Assembly (NCBI RefSeq): GCF_002078605.1
Contig: NZ_MSJR01000014.1
Location: forward strand, 1 to 42,675
Length of the DNA: 42,675 nt
Direction: 5' to 3'
DNA from: Salegentibacter sediminis
GTDB taxonomy: Bacteria > Bacteroidota > Bacteroidia > Flavobacteriales > Flavobacteriaceae
The notes below the pieces were generated by a model that was given only the letters and a program-made list of their open reading frames with translations, made no database searches and was not told where the DNA came from. Numbering within the stretch: the stretch's first letter is position 1; each line of letters begins with the position of its first letter. Below, one piece after another: positions 6,590 to 15,476 of the stretch. The translations under genes were made by a program, and so were the position numbers.

Positions 6590-6916
6590 GCTATAAAGTT
6601 AGCATCTTCTCCTTAGGGTATAAGCAACATTTGTTGCCAAGCCGTCCAAATAGCGGTTTCCCCTAATTGAATCATGGGTTCCTTTATAGTTAAGACCAAT
6701 CTATGCTATGGCTTAATCCTTACTTACACAATAATAAGTTTAGGATACTAAAGGCTAAAACGGGATGCCGCAGGGAAAAAGCTGCAGACCTTGACCCGGA
6801 AAAGGATAATTTTATCAGGCAAGTTTGCTGCTTTTCAATTTAGCCTGCTTAAAAAAACAAAATTTAATGTATCTTTTTTAGGATTTATCGGTCTACTTAG
6901 GGAACAATAAAATTTT
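6590..6916. other. Divergent intergenic region upstream of the metallothionein-like gene
   Basis: No gene is visible in these 327 bases. A possible -7 box, TATCTTTT at 6870-6877, lies 39 bases before the metallothionein start, but the expected TTTG is missing 19 bases upstream (GCTT there), so the promoter call is weak. A GC-richer stretch occurs at about 6755-6800. No clear operator palindrome was found. Confidence 0.35.
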
Positions 6917-7036
6917 ATGACTATGAATAATTGTAAATGCACCAACTGTGATTGTACTAAATGTAATTGCGGAAATTGTTTGGAGAGTAACTGTCCTTGT
7001 TCCAAATGCGATTGTGATAAATGCGATTGTTGTTAA
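6917..7036 (+). CDS. Metallothionein-like cysteine-rich peptide, 39 aa
   Basis: ATG at 6917 to TAA at 7034-7036 encodes 39 residues of which 14 are cysteine: C6, C8, C11, C13, C16, C18, C21, C26, C28, C31, C33, C36, C38, C39. The cysteines fall in CxC and CxxC spacing, with Asn, Asp, Lys and Thr between and no aromatic or long hydrophobic residue, which is the pattern of metallothioneins that bind Zn, Cd or Cu in thiolate clusters. Two Cys-rich halves are separated by GNCLESN (19-25), suggesting two clusters. It is not recognisably one of the named bacterial SmtA types, which contain His and are longer. It is followed by a hairpin terminator and then sigZ. A cysteine-rich leader peptide acting in attenuation is the alternative; the regular spacing favours a metal-binding product. 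Confidence 0.78.
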   Translation: MTMNNCKCTNCDCTKCNCGNCLESNCPCSKCDCDKCDCC

Positions 7037-7043
7037 ATTTGAT

Positions 7044-7072
7044 AAAGCTTAGTCTATGAACTAAGCTTTTTT
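7044..7072 (+). terminator. Intrinsic terminator (or attenuator) between the metallothionein-like gene and sigZ
   Basis: AAAGCTTAGT (7044-7053) pairs perfectly with ACTAAGCTTT (7060-7069) around a 6-base loop and continues into T7070-T7072 (six T in all, 7067-7072). It starts 7 bases after the peptide stop and ends 10 bases before the sigZ ATG, leaving no room for a separate sigZ promoter downstream of it, so sigZ probably depends on readthrough or on an RNA start upstream. Confidence 0.85.
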
Positions 7073-7082
7073 ATATTTATAT

Positions 7083-7607
7083 ATGGAAACTCAAAAAATT
7101 TGGAACAATTTCGGGGATGAATTATATTTTTTCATACTTAAGAAGGTGAAAGATAAAAATGCTGCCAATGATATTTTCCAGAATACCTTTCTAAAAATTC
7201 ATGATAATCTCGCCAGGCTTAAAAAAGAAGAAAAAGTAAAAGCCTGGGTTTTTCAAATTGCCAGAAATGAAATAGTGAATCACTTTCATAAAGAGTCAAT
7301 TTATCTGGAGCAGGTAAATACCAATAAAGAAATTCCTTTGCCAAAATATCATCAAATCTGCTGTTTTGATAAATTCATAAATGAGCTGCCTGAAATTTAC
7401 AGGGAAGTAATTGAATTGGTTTATATAAAAGCTTATAAACAAAAGGATGTTGCAAACAAATTAGGGATAAGCCTTGAAAATGTAAAAGCAAGAATACGGA
7501 GGGCAAAAATTATTTTAAAGAAAAATTTCAGGGAATGCTGTAAGTACGAATTTGATGAAAACGGAAAGTTAACAGGAGAATCAAATTGTGCTATTTGTAA
7601 TACCTGA
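7083..7607 (+). CDS. sigZ: RNA polymerase sigma factor, SigZ type, with C-terminal cysteine cluster
   Basis: The 174-residue protein has ECF-type sigma regions: region 2 at about residues 8-78 (NNFGDELYFFILKKV, then VKAWVFQIARNEIVNHFH) and a region 4 helix-turn-helix at about 106-146 (IYREVIELVYIKAYKQKDVANKLGISLENVKARIRRAK). The C-terminal tail has C152, C153, and C169xxC172 around FDENGKLTGE, a layout I know from SigZ proteins and a plausible metal or redox sensor; C93-C94 may add ligands. No anti-sigma gene is adjacent. The gene begins 10 bases after a terminator that ends the metallothionein-like gene, so the two are probably linked in metal response. It would redirect RNA polymerase to a stress regulon. 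The family is confident; the signal is inferred. Confidence 0.88.
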   Translation: METQKIWNNFGDELYFFILKKVKDKNAANDIFQNTFLKIHDNLARLKKEEKVKAWVFQIARNEIVNHFHKESIYLEQVNTNKEIPLPKYHQICCFDKFINELPEIYREVIELVYIKAYKQKDVANKLGISLENVKARIRRAKIILKKNFRECCKYEFDENGKLTGESNCAICNT

Positions 7608-7751
7608 GTGATTATGGCGGCCAATGATGGCTAATCGCTTACTTAAGATGAATTAATAATCGTCGTACACTAACAGGAACAATCCAGAACAAATGGGAGA
7701 AAGCCAATTACCTTAAAGGTTTTTTTTTAATTTAGAAGAAAAGAATAATTA

Positions 7752-8958: not shown

Positions 8959-9396
8959 ATGAAAAAAGGATTAATATTAGTAATTCTACTTTTAAATTTA
9001 AGTACTGTTTTTGCCCAGGAATGGGAGACAGATTTTGAAAAGGCAAAAGAACTTGCAAGCGAGGAAGATAAACCAATCGTATTGGTTTTCCAGGGTTCAG
9101 ACTGGTGTGCACCTTGCATCAAATTAGACAGGGAAGTTTGGAGTACAGACGCCTTTAAAAATTATGCAACGGACAATTACATAATGTTGCAGGCAGATTT
9201 TCCCCGAAAAAAGAAAAACGAATTATCAGAAGCTCAAAGAAAGGCAAACGCTAAATTAGCAGAAACCTACAACAAAAATGGTGTTTTTCCATTTGTGGTT
9301 GTCCTCGATTCAAAGGGGGAGGTATTGGGGAAGACAGGCTACAAAAAAACAACACCACAAAATTATATTAAGGAATTAAATTCATTAATAAAATAA
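8959..9396 (+). CDS. Periplasmic thioredoxin-family protein
   Basis: The 145-residue protein has a Sec signal peptide (MKKGLILVILLLNLSTVFAQ) and a thioredoxin fold with the redox motif SDWCAPC, the two cysteines two residues apart, followed by a characteristic IKLDREVW helix. VFPFVVVLDSKGEVLGKTGY supplies the cis-Pro strand (Phe-Pro) expected opposite the active site. It would reduce or isomerise disulfides in the periplasm. It is the first gene of an apparent operon: apbE follows its stop codon by one base, then DUF4266 and DUF3570. In this setting it probably keeps cysteines of the downstream proteins, such as the GGCGCN tail of DUF4266, reduced; that is inference. Confidence 0.88.
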   Translation: MKKGLILVILLLNLSTVFAQEWETDFEKAKELASEEDKPIVLVFQGSDWCAPCIKLDREVWSTDAFKNYATDNYIMLQADFPRKKKNELSEAQRKANAKLAETYNKNGVFPFVVVLDSKGEVLGKTGYKKTTPQNYIKELNSLIK

Positions 9397-9397
9397 C

Positions 9398-10378
9398 TTG
9401 AAAGGCCTCCTCACTTTATTTGTGATTCTGTTTTCTGTAACAGTTATGGCGCAGCAGCCATACAAACGCACACTCAAATTAATGGGTAGCCGTTTTGAAA
9501 TTACTGTGGTGGCAAAAGATTCTATTGTTGCAAATAAACATATAGATACTGCGGTGGCTGAAATTTCAAGAATTGAAAAACTCATTTCCTCCTGGGATGC
9601 TAATTCGCAAACTTCTGAGATAAATAGAAATGCTGGTGTTAGCCCTGTTAAGGTAAGCCCTGAACTATTCGAACTGATTGCACGCTCTATTAAGATCTCC
9701 CAATTAACCGATGGTGCTTTTGATATTACTTATGCCTCCATGGATAAAATATGGAAATTTGATGGTAGTATGACGCAAATGCCTTCAGAAGAAGAAATAA
9801 ATGCATCTGTGGCAAAAGTTGGCTTTCAGAACATTTTTCTGGATAGAGAAAACAGCACCGTATTTCTTAAAATGAAGGGAATGAAAATCGGTTTTGGAGC
9901 CATAGGTAAAGGCTATGCTGCCGATAAGGCTAAGGCTCTGCTCATTTCAAAAGGGGTGGCTTCTGGAATTATAAATGCGTCCGGTGATATGAATACCTGG
10001 GGAAAGCAGCCTAATGGGGAGGATTGGAAAATAGCTATTACCAATCCTATGAACAAAAATAAGGTCTTCGCATTATTGCCTATTACTGATGGCGCGGTAG
10101 TAACTTCCGGTAATTACGAGAAATATGTCAATTTCCAGGGGAAAAGATATACCCATATTATTGACCCCCGAACAGGCTATCCGTCAAGCGGAATTATTAG
10201 TGTAACCGTCTTTGCACCAAAGGCAGAACTAGCCGATGCCCTAGCGACCTCTGTATTTGTTATGGGTAAAGAAACCGGATTAGACCGCATCAATCAATTG
10301 CCAGGAATTGAGTGTATTATAATTGATGATAAAGGGAATATCACTAAGTCAAAGAATATTGAATTTGATAAACTATGA
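9398..10378 (+). CDS. apbE: FAD:protein FMN transferase (ApbE)
   Basis: The 326-residue protein starts at a TTG one base after the thioredoxin stop and has a signal peptide (KGLLTLFVILFSVTVMAQQ), as expected for periplasmic ApbE. Family motifs are clear: MGSRFEITV, DGAFDITY, GAIGKGYAADKA, IINASGDMNTWG, DGAVVTSGNYEKY, RYTHIIDPRTGYP and ADALATSVFVMG. The DALAT motif and the preceding Asp bind magnesium. The enzyme splits FAD and attaches FMN by a phosphoester bond to Thr or Ser in a [ST]GA[ST]-like site of partner proteins. The next gene begins inside its stop codon (ATGA). The partner is most likely encoded in the same operon; see DUF3570. TTG is a rare start, but no ATG fits the signal peptide. 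Confidence 0.93.
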   Translation: MKGLLTLFVILFSVTVMAQQPYKRTLKLMGSRFEITVVAKDSIVANKHIDTAVAEISRIEKLISSWDANSQTSEINRNAGVSPVKVSPELFELIARSIKISQLTDGAFDITYASMDKIWKFDGSMTQMPSEEEINASVAKVGFQNIFLDRENSTVFLKMKGMKIGFGAIGKGYAADKAKALLISKGVASGIINASGDMNTWGKQPNGEDWKIAITNPMNKNKVFALLPITDGAVVTSGNYEKYVNFQGKRYTHIIDPRTGYPSSGIISVTVFAPKAELADALATSVFVMGKETGLDRINQLPGIECIIIDDKGNITKSKNIEFDKL

Positions 10379-10587
10379 AGAAAAAGTTTATAACTGCGGT
10401 CTTAATAACTACTTCTTTTTGTAGCTGTGCGGTAGTAAAGGAATATGAGAAGGTGAATATAAATGATCCTGATATGCTGCTTTCAGAAAAGAAAGTAGAC
10501 CGCAATCTTACTACTGCCCATTCCTACCGGGAAGCGGCCGTGGGTGCAAATGGAGGAAAAACTGGAGGCGGCTGCGGCTGTAACTAA
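10375..10587 (+). CDS. DUF4266 small secreted protein or lipoprotein
   Basis: The 70-residue product overlaps the apbE stop by four bases (ATGA), implying translational coupling. It has a short signal sequence with candidate lipoprotein cysteines (TTSFCSC, Cys18 the likelier), a conserved middle ...NINDPDMLLSEKKVDRNLTTAHSYREAAVGANGG, and a C-terminal GGCGCN, the hallmark I associate with DUF4266. The lipobox is imperfect, so lipidation is uncertain. Biochemical role is unknown; the family is repeatedly found beside ApbE and DUF3570 genes to my knowledge. The paired cysteines at the end could bind a metal or form a disulfide handled by the operon's thioredoxin. Confidence 0.82.
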   Translation: MKKKFITAVLITTSFCSCAVVKEYEKVNINDPDMLLSEKKVDRNLTTAHSYREAAVGANGGKTGGGCGCN

Positions 10588-10588
10588 T

Positions 10589-11914
10589 ATGATGGCTATG
10601 TACAAAAATATCCTGCTTTTTATTGGGGTATTCGCTTTTGCGAATGTGTACTCACAAACAACCCAGGACTCAACAAAAGTTTATAAAAAACGTGTTCTTG
10701 AAACCACTGAAGTAGATTTTCTTACAAGTTATTACACCCAGGATGGTGACAATGCTGCTGTTAGTGGAGGTGTTGGGACAGAGGAGTTAACCGATGCTAC
10801 AGGAACTTTTGTGGTTTCCATTCCCTTAAACGACGACGATGTGTTGACAATTGATGCAGGAGTTTCTGCATATACATCTGCCTCCTCAAGTAACATAGAT
10901 CCCTTTGATGATGGCCCGGCAGATCCTTTTCAGGCATCCTCCGGAGCCTCCAGTGGAGACCTTTGGGCAAATCTAACAGGGAGTTATAGCCATAGCTCAG
11001 ATGATAGAAACGATATTTGGTCTGCAAAACTTTCGGTATCTTCAGAATACGATTATTTTTCTGTAGGTATTGGGGGAAGTTATACTAAACTTTTTAATGA
11101 AAAGAATACTGAGATTAGTGTAAACGGAAACGTATATATAGACACCTGGAATGCAATCTATCCCATAGAATTGAGACCTTTTGGGGAAGGCGGAGATGGT
11201 TTGAGCAATCGGTTGTTTGCCCAAAATACTATAACAGGTAACTCCAATTATAATCCTCAATTTTCAGCATTTGACAAGGAAGGGCGTAATTCGTATTCCT
11301 TAGGATTGGGATTCTCCCAAATACTCCATAGAAACCTGCAGGGGTCAATAGCAATAGATTTTGTGCAACAGGACGGATTATTGTCTACGCCCTTCCAAAG
11401 AGTATATTTTGGGGATGTAGCCGATTCTTTTATTGATAGTTTTCACCTCGCCGATGCTGTTGAACGTTTGTCTGATTCAAGGTCTAAAATAGCCGTTGGG
11501 GGGCGTTTAAACTGGTACCTCAATGAAATATTTACGATGAGAACTTTTTATCGTTATTATTCTGATGATTGGGGAGTTACCTCCCATACCGCAAGTCTTG
11601 AAGTTCCTGTTAAGATTACAGATAAGTTTACGCTGTATCCCTCGTATAGATTCTATAATCAAACGGCAGCAGACTACTTTAGACCTTATGAAGCAGCCCT
11701 GTCTACAGATGAATATTACACCTCTGATTATGACCTTTCGGAATACTCCGCAGATCAATTTGGATTTGGAGTTTCCTACACCGATATTTTTGCCAAAATG
11801 CACATCTGGCAATTTGGTTTAAAAAGTGTAGATATAAAGTTTTATAAATATGACCGGGACTCTACATTTAGTTCTAATATTATAACAGCAGGCTTTAAAT
11901 TCCTTATGGATTGA
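10589..11914 (+). CDS. DUF3570 outer-membrane beta-barrel protein
   Basis: The start is placed at the ATG 10589, immediately after the DUF4266 stop (nearby ATGs at 10592 and 10598 are equally possible), since a signal peptide (MYKNILLFIGVFAFANVYSQ) follows; the longer frame from 10544 would run through DUF4266 coding sequence. The mature part, about 420 residues, has many amphipathic beta strands, and ends ...SSNIITAGFKFLMD as a barrel would. Recognisable DUF3570 stretches include LETTEVDFLTSYYTQDGDNAAVSGG, YPIELRP, LSTPFQRVYFGD and RTFYRYYSDDWGVTSHTASLEVPV. At about 10922-10960 it encodes DPFQASSGASSGD, similar to a flavinylation site. It closes the thioredoxin-ApbE-DUF4266 operon. Confidence 0.85.
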   Translation: MMAMYKNILLFIGVFAFANVYSQTTQDSTKVYKKRVLETTEVDFLTSYYTQDGDNAAVSGGVGTEELTDATGTFVVSIPLNDDDVLTIDAGVSAYTSASSSNIDPFDDGPADPFQASSGASSGDLWANLTGSYSHSSDDRNDIWSAKLSVSSEYDYFSVGIGGSYTKLFNEKNTEISVNGNVYIDTWNAIYPIELRPFGEGGDGLSNRLFAQNTITGNSNYNPQFSAFDKEGRNSYSLGLGFSQILHRNLQGSIAIDFVQQDGLLSTPFQRVYFGDVADSFIDSFHLADAVERLSDSRSKIAVGGRLNWYLNEIFTMRTFYRYYSDDWGVTSHTASLEVPVKITDKFTLYPSYRFYNQTAADYFRPYEAALSTDEYYTSDYDLSEYSADQFGFGVSYTDIFAKMHIWQFGLKSVDIKFYKYDRDSTFSSNIITAGFKFLMD

Positions 11915-12996: not shown

Positions 12997-13014
12997 CAAT
13001 GATACAATATTACG
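12987..13014. promoter_or_regulatory. Probable ArsR operator, 10-bp perfect inverted repeat
   Basis: CGTAATATTG (12987-12996) and CAATATTACG (13005-13014) are perfect reverse complements separated by 8 bases. The left arm contains the -7 box and the right arm covers the predicted start of transcription, so a bound dimer would block RNA polymerase. ArsR dimers bind such palindromes; arsR is the second gene of the operon. Confidence 0.75.
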
Positions 13015-13022
13015 TATTTACT

Positions 13023-13469
13023 ATGAAACTTTCAGAAATAAAACAACAGCTTAACTACCTGGATAAAATTGCTTTTCAGTTGCCTAATGGTGAATTGGTG
13101 CCTAATCATTTTCACGTGACCGAGATAGGAAAAGTCACCAAACATTTTATCGATTGTGGCGGAAGCGTACGCAAGGAGGAAGTGGTTAATTTTCAGCTAT
13201 GGAATGCAAACGATTATGATCATCGCCTGCATTCAGAAAAATTAATGCACATCATAGAGCTCTCTCAAAAAACTTTGGGAATAGAAGACCTGGAGATAGA
13301 AGTGGAATATCAGGGACAAACCATTGAAAAATTTGGTTTGGACTTCGATGGCACCAATTTTATGCTCACTACCAAACATACCGATTGTCTTGCCAAAGAT
13401 AAGTGTGGGATCCCGAGTAAAGAGACGGTGGCAACAAATGCTTGCTCTCCAGAGAGCGAATGTTGTTAA
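13023..13469 (+). CDS. DUF6428 family protein of the arsenic operon
   Basis: The start is set at ATG 13023 (MKLSEIKQQLNYL), because an upstream in-frame ATG at 12972 would place coding sequence over the promoter and operator. The product is 148 residues, no signal peptide, with VPNHFHVTEIGKVTKHFIDCGG and a C-terminal tail containing five cysteines (TDCLAKDKC..., NACSPESECC). I recognise it as DUF6428, a family found at the head of ars operons in Bacteroidota. Role unknown; the Cys-rich tail makes arsenite binding, delivery or sensing plausible. arsR follows 18 bases downstream. It would be repressed by ArsR and induced by arsenite. Confidence 0.85.
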   Translation: MKLSEIKQQLNYLDKIAFQLPNGELVPNHFHVTEIGKVTKHFIDCGGSVRKEEVVNFQLWNANDYDHRLHSEKLMHIIELSQKTLGIEDLEIEVEYQGQTIEKFGLDFDGTNFMLTTKHTDCLAKDKCGIPSKETVATNACSPESECC

Positions 13470-13487
13470 TTAATTAAACTATATAGA

Positions 13488-13820
13488 ATGGGAGTTACAA
13501 AATCCGATTTATTTAGCACGACTCAGAATGAGCTGGCTACATATGCCAAAGTATTTGCACACCCTGCGCGCATAGCGATCCTGCAATATTTACTAAGAGC
13601 AAACACTTGTTGTAATACGCACCTGGTGGAAGAATTAGGATTGGCGCAGGCCACCATCAGCCAACATCTGAAAGAATTAAAAAACCTCGGTATCATCCAG
13701 GGAACGGTAGAAGGCGTGTCGGTGAACTATTGTATCAATCCTGAAAAATGGCAGGAAATCAAAGACAGGTTTACGGTCTTTTTTGATAGTTATGAACCCG
13801 GCGGTTTTTCCTGTTGTTAG
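13488..13820 (+). CDS. arsR: ArsR-family arsenite-responsive repressor
   Basis: The 110-residue protein is a winged-helix ArsR/SmtB regulator: FAHPARIAILQYLL then NTCCNTHLVEELGLAQATISQHLKELKNLGII. C41-C42 sit where ArsR proteins bind As(III) close to the recognition helix, and C109-C110 close the protein and may supply further thiol ligands. Binding arsenite would release it from the operator in front of the operon. It lies between DUF6428 and arsC, in the same direction, with gaps of 18 and 10 bases. Family and role are confident; which cysteines act as ligands is inferred. Confidence 0.93.
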   Translation: MGVTKSDLFSTTQNELATYAKVFAHPARIAILQYLLRANTCCNTHLVEELGLAQATISQHLKELKNLGIIQGTVEGVSVNYCINPEKWQEIKDRFTVFFDSYEPGGFSCC

Positions 13821-13830
13821 TCTATTTGAT

Positions 13831-14445
13831 ATGATTTTTAGAAAAATTGAAGAAATCATTGAGTCGCTGGAACTTCAATCAATTCCCGATTCCCGAAAAG
13901 CGGAATTGGCTCCTCTTATTGATTTTATTGAGGAGAAGCTCAAAGCCAAAAAACCGATTAAGCTTAACTTTATTTGTACCCATAACTCGAGAAGAAGTCA
14001 TCTCGCCCAGATCTGGGCACAGGTTATGGCTGAATATTTCAACATTGAAAAGCTAAGTTGTTATTCGGGAGGAACCGAAGCTACCGCTATGTTTCCGGTA
14101 GTTGGTGAAATCCTCGCAGAACAAGGGTTTGAGATAAGCCCGATTTCTCAGGATGAGAATCCGGTATATGTCATTAAATATGCTGCTAATTCCCATCCGG
14201 TAATTGGTTTTTCCAAAACTTTTGATCATACATTCAATCCTGTTTCCGGCTTTGCAGCGATCATGACCTGTTCCCAGGCCGATGCAGACTGTCCTTTTAT
14301 CGCTGGAGCCGAAAAGCGAATCCCGATTCCTTACGACGATCCCAAAGAATTTGACGGTACACCCCAACAGAAGGAAAAATACCGGGAACGCAGTCTTCAA
14401 ATCGCTACTGAATTATACTATGTTTTTTCCAAAATCAAGCAATAA
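13831..14445 (+). CDS. arsC: Arsenate reductase, low-molecular-weight phosphatase type
   Basis: The start is set at ATG 13831, just after the arsR stop; an upstream in-frame ATG at 13783 overlaps arsR. The product is 204 residues with an N-terminal helical extension of about 40 residues followed by the phosphatase-fold loop CTHNSRR (C49 to R55, CX5R). C147 and C154, spaced C-x6-C in TCSQADADC, match the relay cysteines of thioredoxin-coupled ArsC, and PYDDP supplies the DP acid. It would reduce arsenate to arsenite, with electrons from thioredoxin. Its stop overlaps the acr3 start (TAATG). Related proteins are annotated as protein-tyrosine phosphatases, but context and cysteines favour arsenate reductase. 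Confidence 0.9.
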
Positions 14446-15476
14446 TGACGCAGCCTAAGAAACAAATCCCGTTTTTTGAACGCTATCTCAGTTTGTGGGT
14501 AGCGCTATGCATTGCAGCAGGAATTTTAATTGGCCATCTACTGGGCGAAAGTATGCAGGTGTTAGCCGATGCCCAGATCTATAATGTAAATATCCCAATC
14601 GCTATCCTCATCTGGCTTATGATCTATCCCATGATGCTGCAAATAGATTTTAGTAGTATCAGGAATGTCGGTAAGGCTCCTAAAGGTCTTATCCTCACCC
14701 TGGTTGTGAATTGGCTGATAAAACCATTTACCATGGCCTTTTTCGCCTGGATATTCTTTGAACATCTCTATTCAGCCTGGATCGATCCCGGGATGGCCGG
14801 GGAATATATTGCCGGAGCGATTTTGCTTGGAGTAGCACCTTGTACCGCGATGGTTTTTGTGTGGTCTTATTTAACCGATGGTGACCCAAATTATACCCTC
14901 GTGCAGGTTTCTATAAACGATTTGATTATCCTGGTAGCATTTGTGCCCCTGGTTGGACTGTTATTAGGGATCACCGATATTAGTATCCCTTATGAAACCT
15001 TAGTGGCTTCGGTGCTCATCTTTGTGGTGATACCGCTTATAGCCGGGGTGATCACCAATAAAGTACTGGTTAAAAAACACGGGGAAGAGTGGTTTACAAA
15101 TCATTTTTTACCAAAGTTGAAACCTCTAAGTATCCTGGCGCTCTTACTTACCCTGGTATTATTGTTTGCTTTTCAGGGTCCTAATATTTTAGATAATCCA
15201 TTGATCATCCTGTTAATAGCGGTTCCACTTATCATTCAATCCTATTTTATATTTTTTATTACCTGGTTTGCCGGCAGAAAACTAAATTTGAAACATGCGA
15301 TTTGTTCTCCCGCAGCTATGATAGGAACGAGTAATTTTTTCGAGCTGGCGGTTGCAGTTGCCATTGCCCTATTCGGGCTCCAGAGTCCGGCTGCTTTGGT
15401 AACTGTAGTTGGTGTATTGGTTGAGGTTCCTGTTATGCTCAGTTTGGTAGCCTTAGCCAATAAATGGAGGTATTAG
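14445..15476 (+). CDS. acr3: ACR3-type arsenite efflux permease
   Basis: The 343-residue protein has about ten membrane helices. ACR3 signatures are present: [21 protein letters not shown] at the N-terminus, [32 protein letters not shown] with the conserved cysteine needed for arsenite transport, [12 protein letters not shown] and [17 protein letters not shown] near the end. It expels arsenite across the inner membrane by proton exchange. It is translationally coupled to arsC through a TAATG overlap and ends the operon. No clear hairpin terminator follows. Confidence 0.94.

Follow-up and report, generated by a model that had tools for sequence, protein, structure and literature searches.

A Conserved Unit of Metallothionein-like Peptide, Hairpin and SigZ-like Sigma Factor in Salegentibacter sediminis, a Candidate Metal(loid) Response Module

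A 14-Cys metallothionein-like peptide, a terminator-like hairpin and a SigZ-like ECF sigma factor lie in direct succession in Salegentibacter sediminis, and comparison with relatives supports the three as one conserved unit. The unit is located in a 42,675-nucleotide stretch of DNA (contig NZ_MSJR01000014.1), called the window here, and is preceded by a candidate promoter from which the sigma factor most likely transcribes its own peptide-sigma operon. It is rather likely that the unit is a self-activating two-gene response module for a thiophilic metal(loid), with As(III) as the leading inducer, and that the inducer is sensed by the sigma factor's own cysteines. Comparative support for the module comes from the gene order, the promoter, the hairpin, the cysteine pattern, the near-exclusivity of the promoter in one clade of relatives (clade A), and the arsenic genes beside distant relatives. 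The earlier note on this DNA had described the order of peptide, hairpin and sigma factor with a cysteine-containing tail, and all of these parts were found where it had placed them. It had also proposed that metal load, or the cysteine and translation status over the peptide, sets readthrough into the sigma gene; the link to metals is graded as likely, but a readthrough switch of this kind is not supported.

The peptide, the sigma factor and their relatives

The peptide had been described as having 39 residues, and the open reading frame at 6917-7036 does encode 39 residues with 14 Cys. The form that is conserved in relatives, however, starts at the second ATG and is 37 residues long (6923..7036, forward strand, stop codon included), the in-frame ATG at 6917 adding two residues. 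With 14 Cys in 37 residues in CxC/CxxC spacing, the peptide is short and Cys-dense as metallothioneins are, and it has no match in Pfam, NCBIfam, PHROGs or PDB sequences and so belongs to no curated metallothionein family there. It is encoded once in its own genome and is a bacterial metallothionein-like peptide that is predicted to bind metal. A peptide search of 249 family genomes matched 13, comprising 11 at the sigma locus, one orphan (G223) and one match judged spurious (G238), which has an E of 0.008 and lies inside a 212-aa frame. This search is blind to the 11-Cys peptides of clade B, because G002 and G013, which both have such peptides, gave no match, and divergent 14-Cys peptides may escape it. 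The orphan 14-Cys peptide in G223 (L223 1471-1611, reverse strand) has neither a sigma gene nor a SigZ-type promoter within ~1.5 kb.

The sigma gene (7083..7607, forward strand) encodes 174 aa and is assigned to the ECF sigma factors by its matches to Pfam Sigma70_r2 (PF04542, 37.7, cut-off 24) and r4_2 (PF08281, 48.5, cut-off 25.7). It had been called SigZ-type, and SigZ, known from Bacillus, is the family that it matches best, along almost all of its sequence, but its scores of 148 bits for TIGR02959 (cut-off 168.65) and 150.8 bits for NF007215 (cut-off 212) are below both curated cut-offs; the SigZ label is a resemblance. The next-best ECF paralogue in the same genome is 38% identical over residues 12-147.

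Relatives in the Flavobacteriaceae were searched for the same gene order. The sigma factor was found at E ≤ 1e-25 in 83/397 family genomes (85 matches), and these matches together with 20 named loci from GTDB contigs make up 105 sigma loci, the window (L009) counted. A Cys-rich peptide is encoded upstream of the sigma gene in 87 of the 105 loci, which supports the single unit of peptide, hairpin and sigma in the earlier note as a conserved one. The upstream peptides are of two types, 14-Cys (clade A) and 11-Cys (clade B), and contain exactly 14 or 11 Cys in 84/87 cases. The named clade-A hosts include Salegentibacter, Psychroflexus, Maribacter, Polaribacter, Cellulophaga, Mesonia and Aequorivita, and those outside the Flavobacteriaceae are Roseivirga, Brumimicrobium and Pedobacter. 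The 18 loci without an upstream peptide include G226 (L025), a truncated sigma (L058) and a sigma with stop codons (L128/L234), which has the promoter and no peptide that could be found; L058 and L128/L234 count as misses among the 105 loci. Ten of the 18 do not have the second Cys of the tail pair, and five have the pair and are neighbored by ArsM (4) or by a downstream Cys peptide (1). Two pairs of loci are near-identical, L015/L047 and L041/L042. The latter pair represents nearly identical units in Psychroflexus tropicus (L041) and Roseivirga spongicola (L042), which belong to different families, and this likeness reflects either a recent transfer or a contaminated assembly.

The C-C...CxxC cluster described for the sigma tail is confirmed as C152-C153 and C169-x2-C172 and is part of a conserved pattern, and the linker features C93-C94 in addition to the tail cysteines of the earlier note. 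C152-C153 is kept in 44/44 mt14, 47/47 mt11 and 16/16 ars-linked rows of the alignment, and C152-C153 together with C169 is present in every one of these rows that has residues there, the last residues being absent from some clade-B rows that derive from sequence stretches ending at the match. C153 is found in 5/15 other family rows, all five of which adjoin ArsM (4) or a downstream Cys peptide (1), and two of these five genes are also represented among the 16 ars-linked rows. The clade-A tail, which is paired with the 14-Cys peptide, reads like ECCKYE..GKLTGE.NCxxC, and the clade-B tail, which is paired with the 11-Cys peptide, reads DCCDYKLN..G.LVGEIKDKEDCKVC. A metal site derived from structure was rejected, as the AlphaFold model of the tail is below pLDDT 50.

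A conserved neighborhood around the unit was rejected: among the window and 19 named loci with unequal flanks, no gene besides sigma (ORFs ≥80 aa) recurs in more than 3/20 loci, and mt14 loci have no conserved neighbor except the peptide. A plasmid-borne unit was rejected as well; five plasmid records match the sigma factor, all below 60% identity (27-34%), and the two that were inspected have no adjoining Cys peptide. Two more types of Cys peptide are located upstream of sigma at L181 2428 and L179 2966 (sigma-oriented; family f25). Downstream of the unit, at 8959-11914, the window contains genes for a thioredoxin-like protein, ApbE (FMN transferase), DUF4266 and DUF3570 in tandem, which looks like an envelope redox/flavinylation cluster; the DUF4266 protein is small and has a C-terminal GGGCGCN.

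The promoter upstream of the peptide and the hairpin downstream of it

The candidate ECF-type promoter is located at 6868..6896 on the forward strand and consists of TGTATCTTTT as the -35 region (from 6868) and GTCTAC as the -10 region (6891-6896), with the conserved start of the peptide 26 nt 3' of GTCTAC. The consensus upstream of the peptide is TGTATCyTTTT-N12-GTCTAC in clade A and TGCATCTTTTT...CGTCTA in clade B. The exact pattern has a single occurrence in the 3.26-Mb genome, at 6868-6896, versus 0 for the reversed control. A strict pattern was found in 70/87 peptide loci and in 0/1740 shuffles, and a relaxed pattern, which was composed after inspection of the sequences, in 87/87. The distance from the promoter to the peptide start is 24-30 nt in 80/87 loci, and of the seven loci outside this range L016 and L026 are due to trimming of the peptide by the script. 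Additionally, the -35 box follows the sigma clade, with GTATC in 42/42 clade-A loci and GCATC, GCGTC and GAATC in 41, 2 and 2 of 45 clade-B loci. A scan of 24 clade-A genomes with ≤1 mismatch revealed 41 sites, of which 23 are at the sigma locus, 17 are away from it (versus 14 for the reversed control pattern), and one is 2.2 kb from sigma in G226, before a TonB-dependent receptor gene. A conserved promoter that matches the sigma clade and is nearly confined to the locus makes it most likely that the sigma factor transcribes its own operon, and the regulon in most clade-A genomes is likely this single operon. In G226 the receptor gene behind the SigZ-type promoter (L144 3777-5948, reverse strand) is convergent with a sigma gene that has no peptide, so that an import gene occupies the place of the peptide.

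The box is tied most strongly to the sigma factor by loci in which the partners are split and the box precedes both of them, namely sigma and a separate Cys peptide in L157, L161, L162 and L233, and sigma and ArsM in L192 and L231. The same promoter type is located directly before ArsM in L155, L163, L164, L192 and L231 and before ArsI in L167, and no box was found before ArsI in L168-L171, L174 and L178. It also precedes genes with no recognized metal role in L154, L156, L166, L172 and L175, and in L172 and L175 it is found before sigma as well; the promoter type is thus not tied to metals alone. The gene behind the box at L172 2234 and L175 3710 (sigma-oriented; family f8) is secreted-looking and ~315 aa long. 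A third SigZ-type promoter, besides those of sigma and ArsM, is located at L231 2481 (reverse strand, G350), and at L233 2919 (forward strand, G109) a different Cys peptide with 11 Cys in 45 residues follows sigma and has its own SigZ-type promoter. The sigma factors of L173, L183-L187 and L189-L191 do not have the second tail Cys and share a downstream gene that by eye is a PhzF-like isomerase, which suggests a distinct lineage with a different function; the PhzF-like gene of L166 has a SigZ-type box directly in front of it.

The hairpin (7044..7069, forward strand) features a 10-bp stem, a 6-nt loop and a T/A-rich tract 3' of it. The perfect stem with a T tract reported earlier was therefore recovered and has the form of an intrinsic terminator, but the distance from the stem end (7069) to the sigma ATG (7083) is 13 nt and not 10. 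The stretch from the peptide stop to this ATG folds at -14.3 kcal/mol (z -4.5 versus 200 shuffles), and intergenic folds with E ≤ -5 and z ≤ -2 were found in 36/39 loci tested of the 14-Cys group and 44/45 of the 11-Cys group, three longer stretches being left out. In the counts of hairpins, T-rich tails and -7 boxes, the clade-A loci L016 and L026 were entered in the 11-Cys group after script trimming. Pairing of the stem reaches 99.2% over 25 clade-A rows (24 distinct), and both sides have changed at 7/10 pairs, which was matched by 0/500 shuffles and is above all slid versions; this set leaves out 15 further clade-A loci, which are mostly more divergent or duplicates. A T-rich tail (≥5 T in the 9 nt after the stem) is found in 27/37 loci of the 14-Cys group and 15/45 of the other, so that the hairpin resembles a partial terminator, a likeness that is weaker in the 11-Cys group. 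The gene pair is kept without a strong hairpin in 4/84 peptide loci tested (L024, L028, L030 and L026), which indicates that the hairpin tunes rather than makes the system. It probably just keeps the sigma level below the peptide level.

It is highly improbable that termination at the hairpin is regulated, with readthrough set by metal load or by the supply of cysteine at the Cys codons. The covariation of the conserved stem would fit such a role, as would the short distance from stop to stem (median 4 nt in the 14-Cys group and 7 nt in the other), because a ribosome that has reached the stop codon could cover the 5' arm of the hairpin. An attenuator of this kind features a conserved, mutually exclusive antiterminator, yet in 36 clade-A loci, 34 of which keep the hairpin, a search for conserved pairing of the RNA that encodes the peptide with the 5' arm found none (median z +0.5 versus codon shuffles). 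The sequence and place of the hairpin also differ between the clades, no strong hairpin is present in the four loci named above, and Rfam gave no match up to E 1 in window positions 6600-7700. Cysteine- or metal-responsive attenuation was rejected on the antiterminator result and an Rfam element on the lack of a match, and the switch set by metal, cysteine or translation is not supported, given that no antiterminator was found and that some loci keep the gene pair with no strong hairpin.

The sigma gene had also been thought to have no space for a promoter after the terminator. This fits the window, in which the last 30 nt before sigma contain no TAnnTTTG, the primary-sigma -7 box of Flavobacteria (PMC9723704), and it does not fit every relative. 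TAnnTTTG is present in this interval in 15/38 loci of the 14-Cys group versus ~1.2 expected from shuffles, and in 4/47 loci of the other group versus 1.5 expected. The excess in the 14-Cys group favors the alternative that sigZ has its own primary-sigma promoter over the T tract of the hairpin, in which case the hairpin would merely end the peptide mRNA and readthrough would be unneeded. The box is nevertheless absent from the window and from 23/38 and 43/47 loci of the two groups, no conserved -33 box was seen by eye, and a start at this position would give a leaderless or nearly leaderless mRNA, a class that accounts for 5.5% of mRNAs in F. psychrophilum (PMC9723704). These features make a separate sigZ promoter fairly improbable. 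The ECF-type promoter upstream of the peptide, which the earlier note overlooked, is better supported as the control point than hairpin readthrough.

Arsenic genes and the candidate inducer

In a maximum-likelihood tree of 137 rows, mt14 (46 rows, 100/100) and mt11 (46 rows, 100/95) are sisters (97/83) and are next to an ars-linked clade of L160, L163, L177 and L180 (96/80); the tree is midpoint-rooted with long branches, which limits how far its branching order can be read, and the truncated sigma L058 and the sigma with stop codons L128/L234 were left out of it. The peptide clades may descend from an arsenic-linked ancestor. A search with an alignment of 16 sigma factors gave 40 matches in 39/395 Bacteroidota genomes, the own genome included. 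A Cys peptide is located near 17/40 matches (upstream of sigma in 13, of which 11 are of the clade A/B kind and 2 of other kinds, and downstream in 4), an arsenic gene is near 14/40 (ArsM 3, ArsI/CadI 9, ArsP-like permease 2, one of them by eye), and neither a Cys peptide nor ArsM, ArsI or ArsP was recognized near 9/40. The genes beside sigma that score over the NCBIfam cut-off are ArsM in L155, L163, L164 and L192, ArsI/CadI in L159, L167 and L168, and ACR3 in L167; the remaining ArsI and ArsM assignments were made by tblastn. The L180 permease is a PF03773 protein that is below the cut-offs of both NCBIfam models it matched. The ars-linked relatives resemble the window unit in having a homologous sigma factor with a tail CC and a further tail Cys and, in several cases, the same promoter type, and they differ in their product, which is an arsenic enzyme or pump instead of a Cys peptide. 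A sigma factor encoded on a Hymenobacter plasmid (34% identical) is closely preceded by a box of this type, and ArsC and ACR3 are annotated 2-2.5 kb away from it.

The window itself contains an ars cluster 5.4-7 kb downstream of sigZ (13011-15476, all forward strand). It consists of a DUF6428 protein (13011..13469; PF20001, 215 bits), an ArsR/SmtB-family regulator (13488..13820; NF033788, 68 bits, cut-off 55; PF01022), an ArsC-like reductase (13834..14445) and an ACR3 arsenite efflux transporter (14445..15476; TIGR00832, 404.7 bits, cut-off 282.8). The ArsC-like assignment is weak (TIGR02691, 39.4 bits versus a cut-off of 174.3, with no Pfam match), and the genes at the corresponding position of the ars clusters in three relatives are 61-70% identical to it. 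No SigZ-type box was found at this cluster, whose first gene is DUF6428, and with its own ArsR-family gene the arsenite efflux of the window does not seem to need SigZ. ACR3 proximity was counted in 42 sigma genomes, 27 of clade A (including G226, which has no peptide) and 15 of the ~45 of clade B. ACR3 is over the cut-off in 34/42 and within 10 kb of sigma in 5/34, from four genera, compared to ~0.23 genomes expected for random placement; four of the five cases were already known before the count. The distances are 6.9 kb in the window, 3.6 kb in G287 and 5.6 kb in G525, and in G160 and G340 ACR3 is ~0.3 kb away, directly upstream of the unit. All five cases are among the 23 clade-A genomes with ACR3, versus 0/11 in clade B.

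As(III) binds three thiolates, and Cd, Cu and Zn form thiolate clusters. On this chemistry the tail and the peptide both fit several ions, and it is the arsenic genes beside relatives that tip the balance to arsenic as the ligand. Several observations stand against the self-activating module with As(III) as inducer: clade B has no ACR3 within 10 kb, the arsenic genes of the window have an ArsR-family regulator and lack a SigZ-type promoter, boxes of the promoter type also precede the TonB-dependent receptor gene and genes with no recognized metal role but were not found before several ArsI genes, nine phylum matches have neither a Cys peptide nor ArsM, ArsI or ArsP recognized nearby, and the peptide of G223 has no sigma gene within 1.5 kb.

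It is rather unlikely that the natural inducer of the same autoregulated module is Cu, Cd or Zn and that the arsenic genes of relatives reflect shared thiol chemistry. Transition metals are sensed by the Cys-rich tails of the ECF sigma factors CorE (Cu) and CorE2 (Cd, Zn) (PMC8999054, PMC3107203), the name of the ArsI/CadI model refers to heavy-metal resistance at large, the L180 permease also matches a Cu/Zn efflux model (93 of 300 bits, below the cut-off), and the window's arsenic genes already have their own ArsR-family gene. No recurrent copper or cadmium neighbor gene was noticed by eye, however, ACR3 proximity is enriched in clade A, and ArsM and ACR3 are arsenic-specific by name. The same partners, ArsM, ArsI and ACR3, make it improbable that the sigma factor senses thiol oxidation (disulfide stress) with the Cys peptide as a thiol buffer rather than a metal buffer. 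Vicinal Cys pairs such as those of the tail can form disulfides, and thiol-sensing control exists in other ECF systems, via anti-sigma factors. The thioredoxin-like gene 1.4 kb downstream of the unit would suit this function, but it was found in no other locus compared (E ≤ 1e-10).

The preferred mechanism, with a metal(loid) sensed by the sigma factor, is predicted from these comparisons, and this holds for the use of the promoter by the sigma factor, the ligand, the direction of the response, the efficiency of termination, the lack of an anti-sigma factor and metal binding by the peptide. The ECF sigma factor with its Cys-rich tail would direct RNA polymerase to TGTATCyTTTT-N12-GTCTAC just 5' of its own operon, and the main product would be that of the first gene, the 14-Cys metallothionein-like peptide. 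The hairpin 3' of the peptide would stop or process most transcripts, so that less sigma factor is made via readthrough, enough for positive feedback. Activation of the sigma factor would require no anti-sigma factor and would follow from the binding of a thiophilic metal(loid) to C152-C153, C169-C172 and perhaps C93-C94, As(III) being the likeliest ion and Sb(III), Cd, Cu or Zn the alternatives. The peptide would then bind the ion and close a negative loop.

Relation to known systems and significance

The nearest mechanism to that proposed for the window sigma factor is that of the CorE-type sigma factors. CorE and CorE2 of Myxococcus xanthus were assigned to ECF44, now ECF238 (PMC8999054), and like the window protein they are ECF sigma factors with a Cys motif in the linker, while their Cys-rich extension at the C-terminus may have a counterpart in its tail (PMC8999054, PMC3107203). 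Metal-related targets and the lack of an anti-sigma factor are further likenesses that the window sequence suggests. The CorE tail has 38 residues with six Cys (PMC3107203), whereas the window sigma factor has a short CC-x15-CxxC tail with four conserved Cys (152, 153, 169 and 172), a comparison made by description. The CxC motif in the sigma2-sigma4 linker, which is found in the former ECF44 only (PMC8999054), is replaced by C93-C94, and the window sigma factor is therefore not assigned to the CorE type. The CorE targets named in the available parts of the two sources are cuoB, copB and perhaps copA (PMC8999054, PMC3107203), with no metallothionein in front of sigma as in the window unit. The 21 CRD sigma factors counted in PMC3107203 are from four phyla that do not include Bacteroidetes.

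A SigZ encoded on a Priestia plasmid has a vicinal CC at the end of region 4, as found here. It does not have the C-terminal CxxC, and no adjoining Cys peptide is annotated in the PLSDB gene table, which is incomplete. The bacterial metallothioneins SmtA/BmtA and MymT are small, Cys-dense peptides like that of the window. The window peptide differs from these in having no Pfam or NCBIfam match, in its regular CxC-x2-CxC spacing and in being, as the promoter suggests, under a sigma factor and not a repressor; MymT, a metallothionein that protects against copper, is controlled by RicR (PMC10141476). The parts of the unit are thus of known kinds, and their pairing with one promoter and a hairpin between them was not found in the literature searched. 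In one open literature collection, mainly searched by titles and abstracts, no earlier report of a metallothionein-like peptide paired with its own sigma factor is among the matches listed, and no report of arsenic with an ECF sigma factor in Bacteroidetes was found there.

A broader reading, which is tentative, places the unit in a Bacteroidota-wide class of arsenite-sensing ECF sigma factors that act without an anti-sigma factor. The lineage of the window would have dropped the arsenic enzymes and kept practically one target, the metallothionein 5' of sigma, with the hairpin setting the ratio of sponge to sensor in a ~0.75 kb module that spreads between families.

The unit provides a testable function for SigZ-like sigma factors in a major phylum and adds a metallothionein-like type that is absent from the family libraries searched. 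It is also a compact example of metal(loid) sensing that may take place through a sigma factor's own cysteines, with an apparent regulon of one operon. If arsenite is the inducer, the unit would show that arsenic genes can be regulated through a sigma factor as well as through ArsR, and it would offer a small, portable promoter-sensor pair for biosensing.
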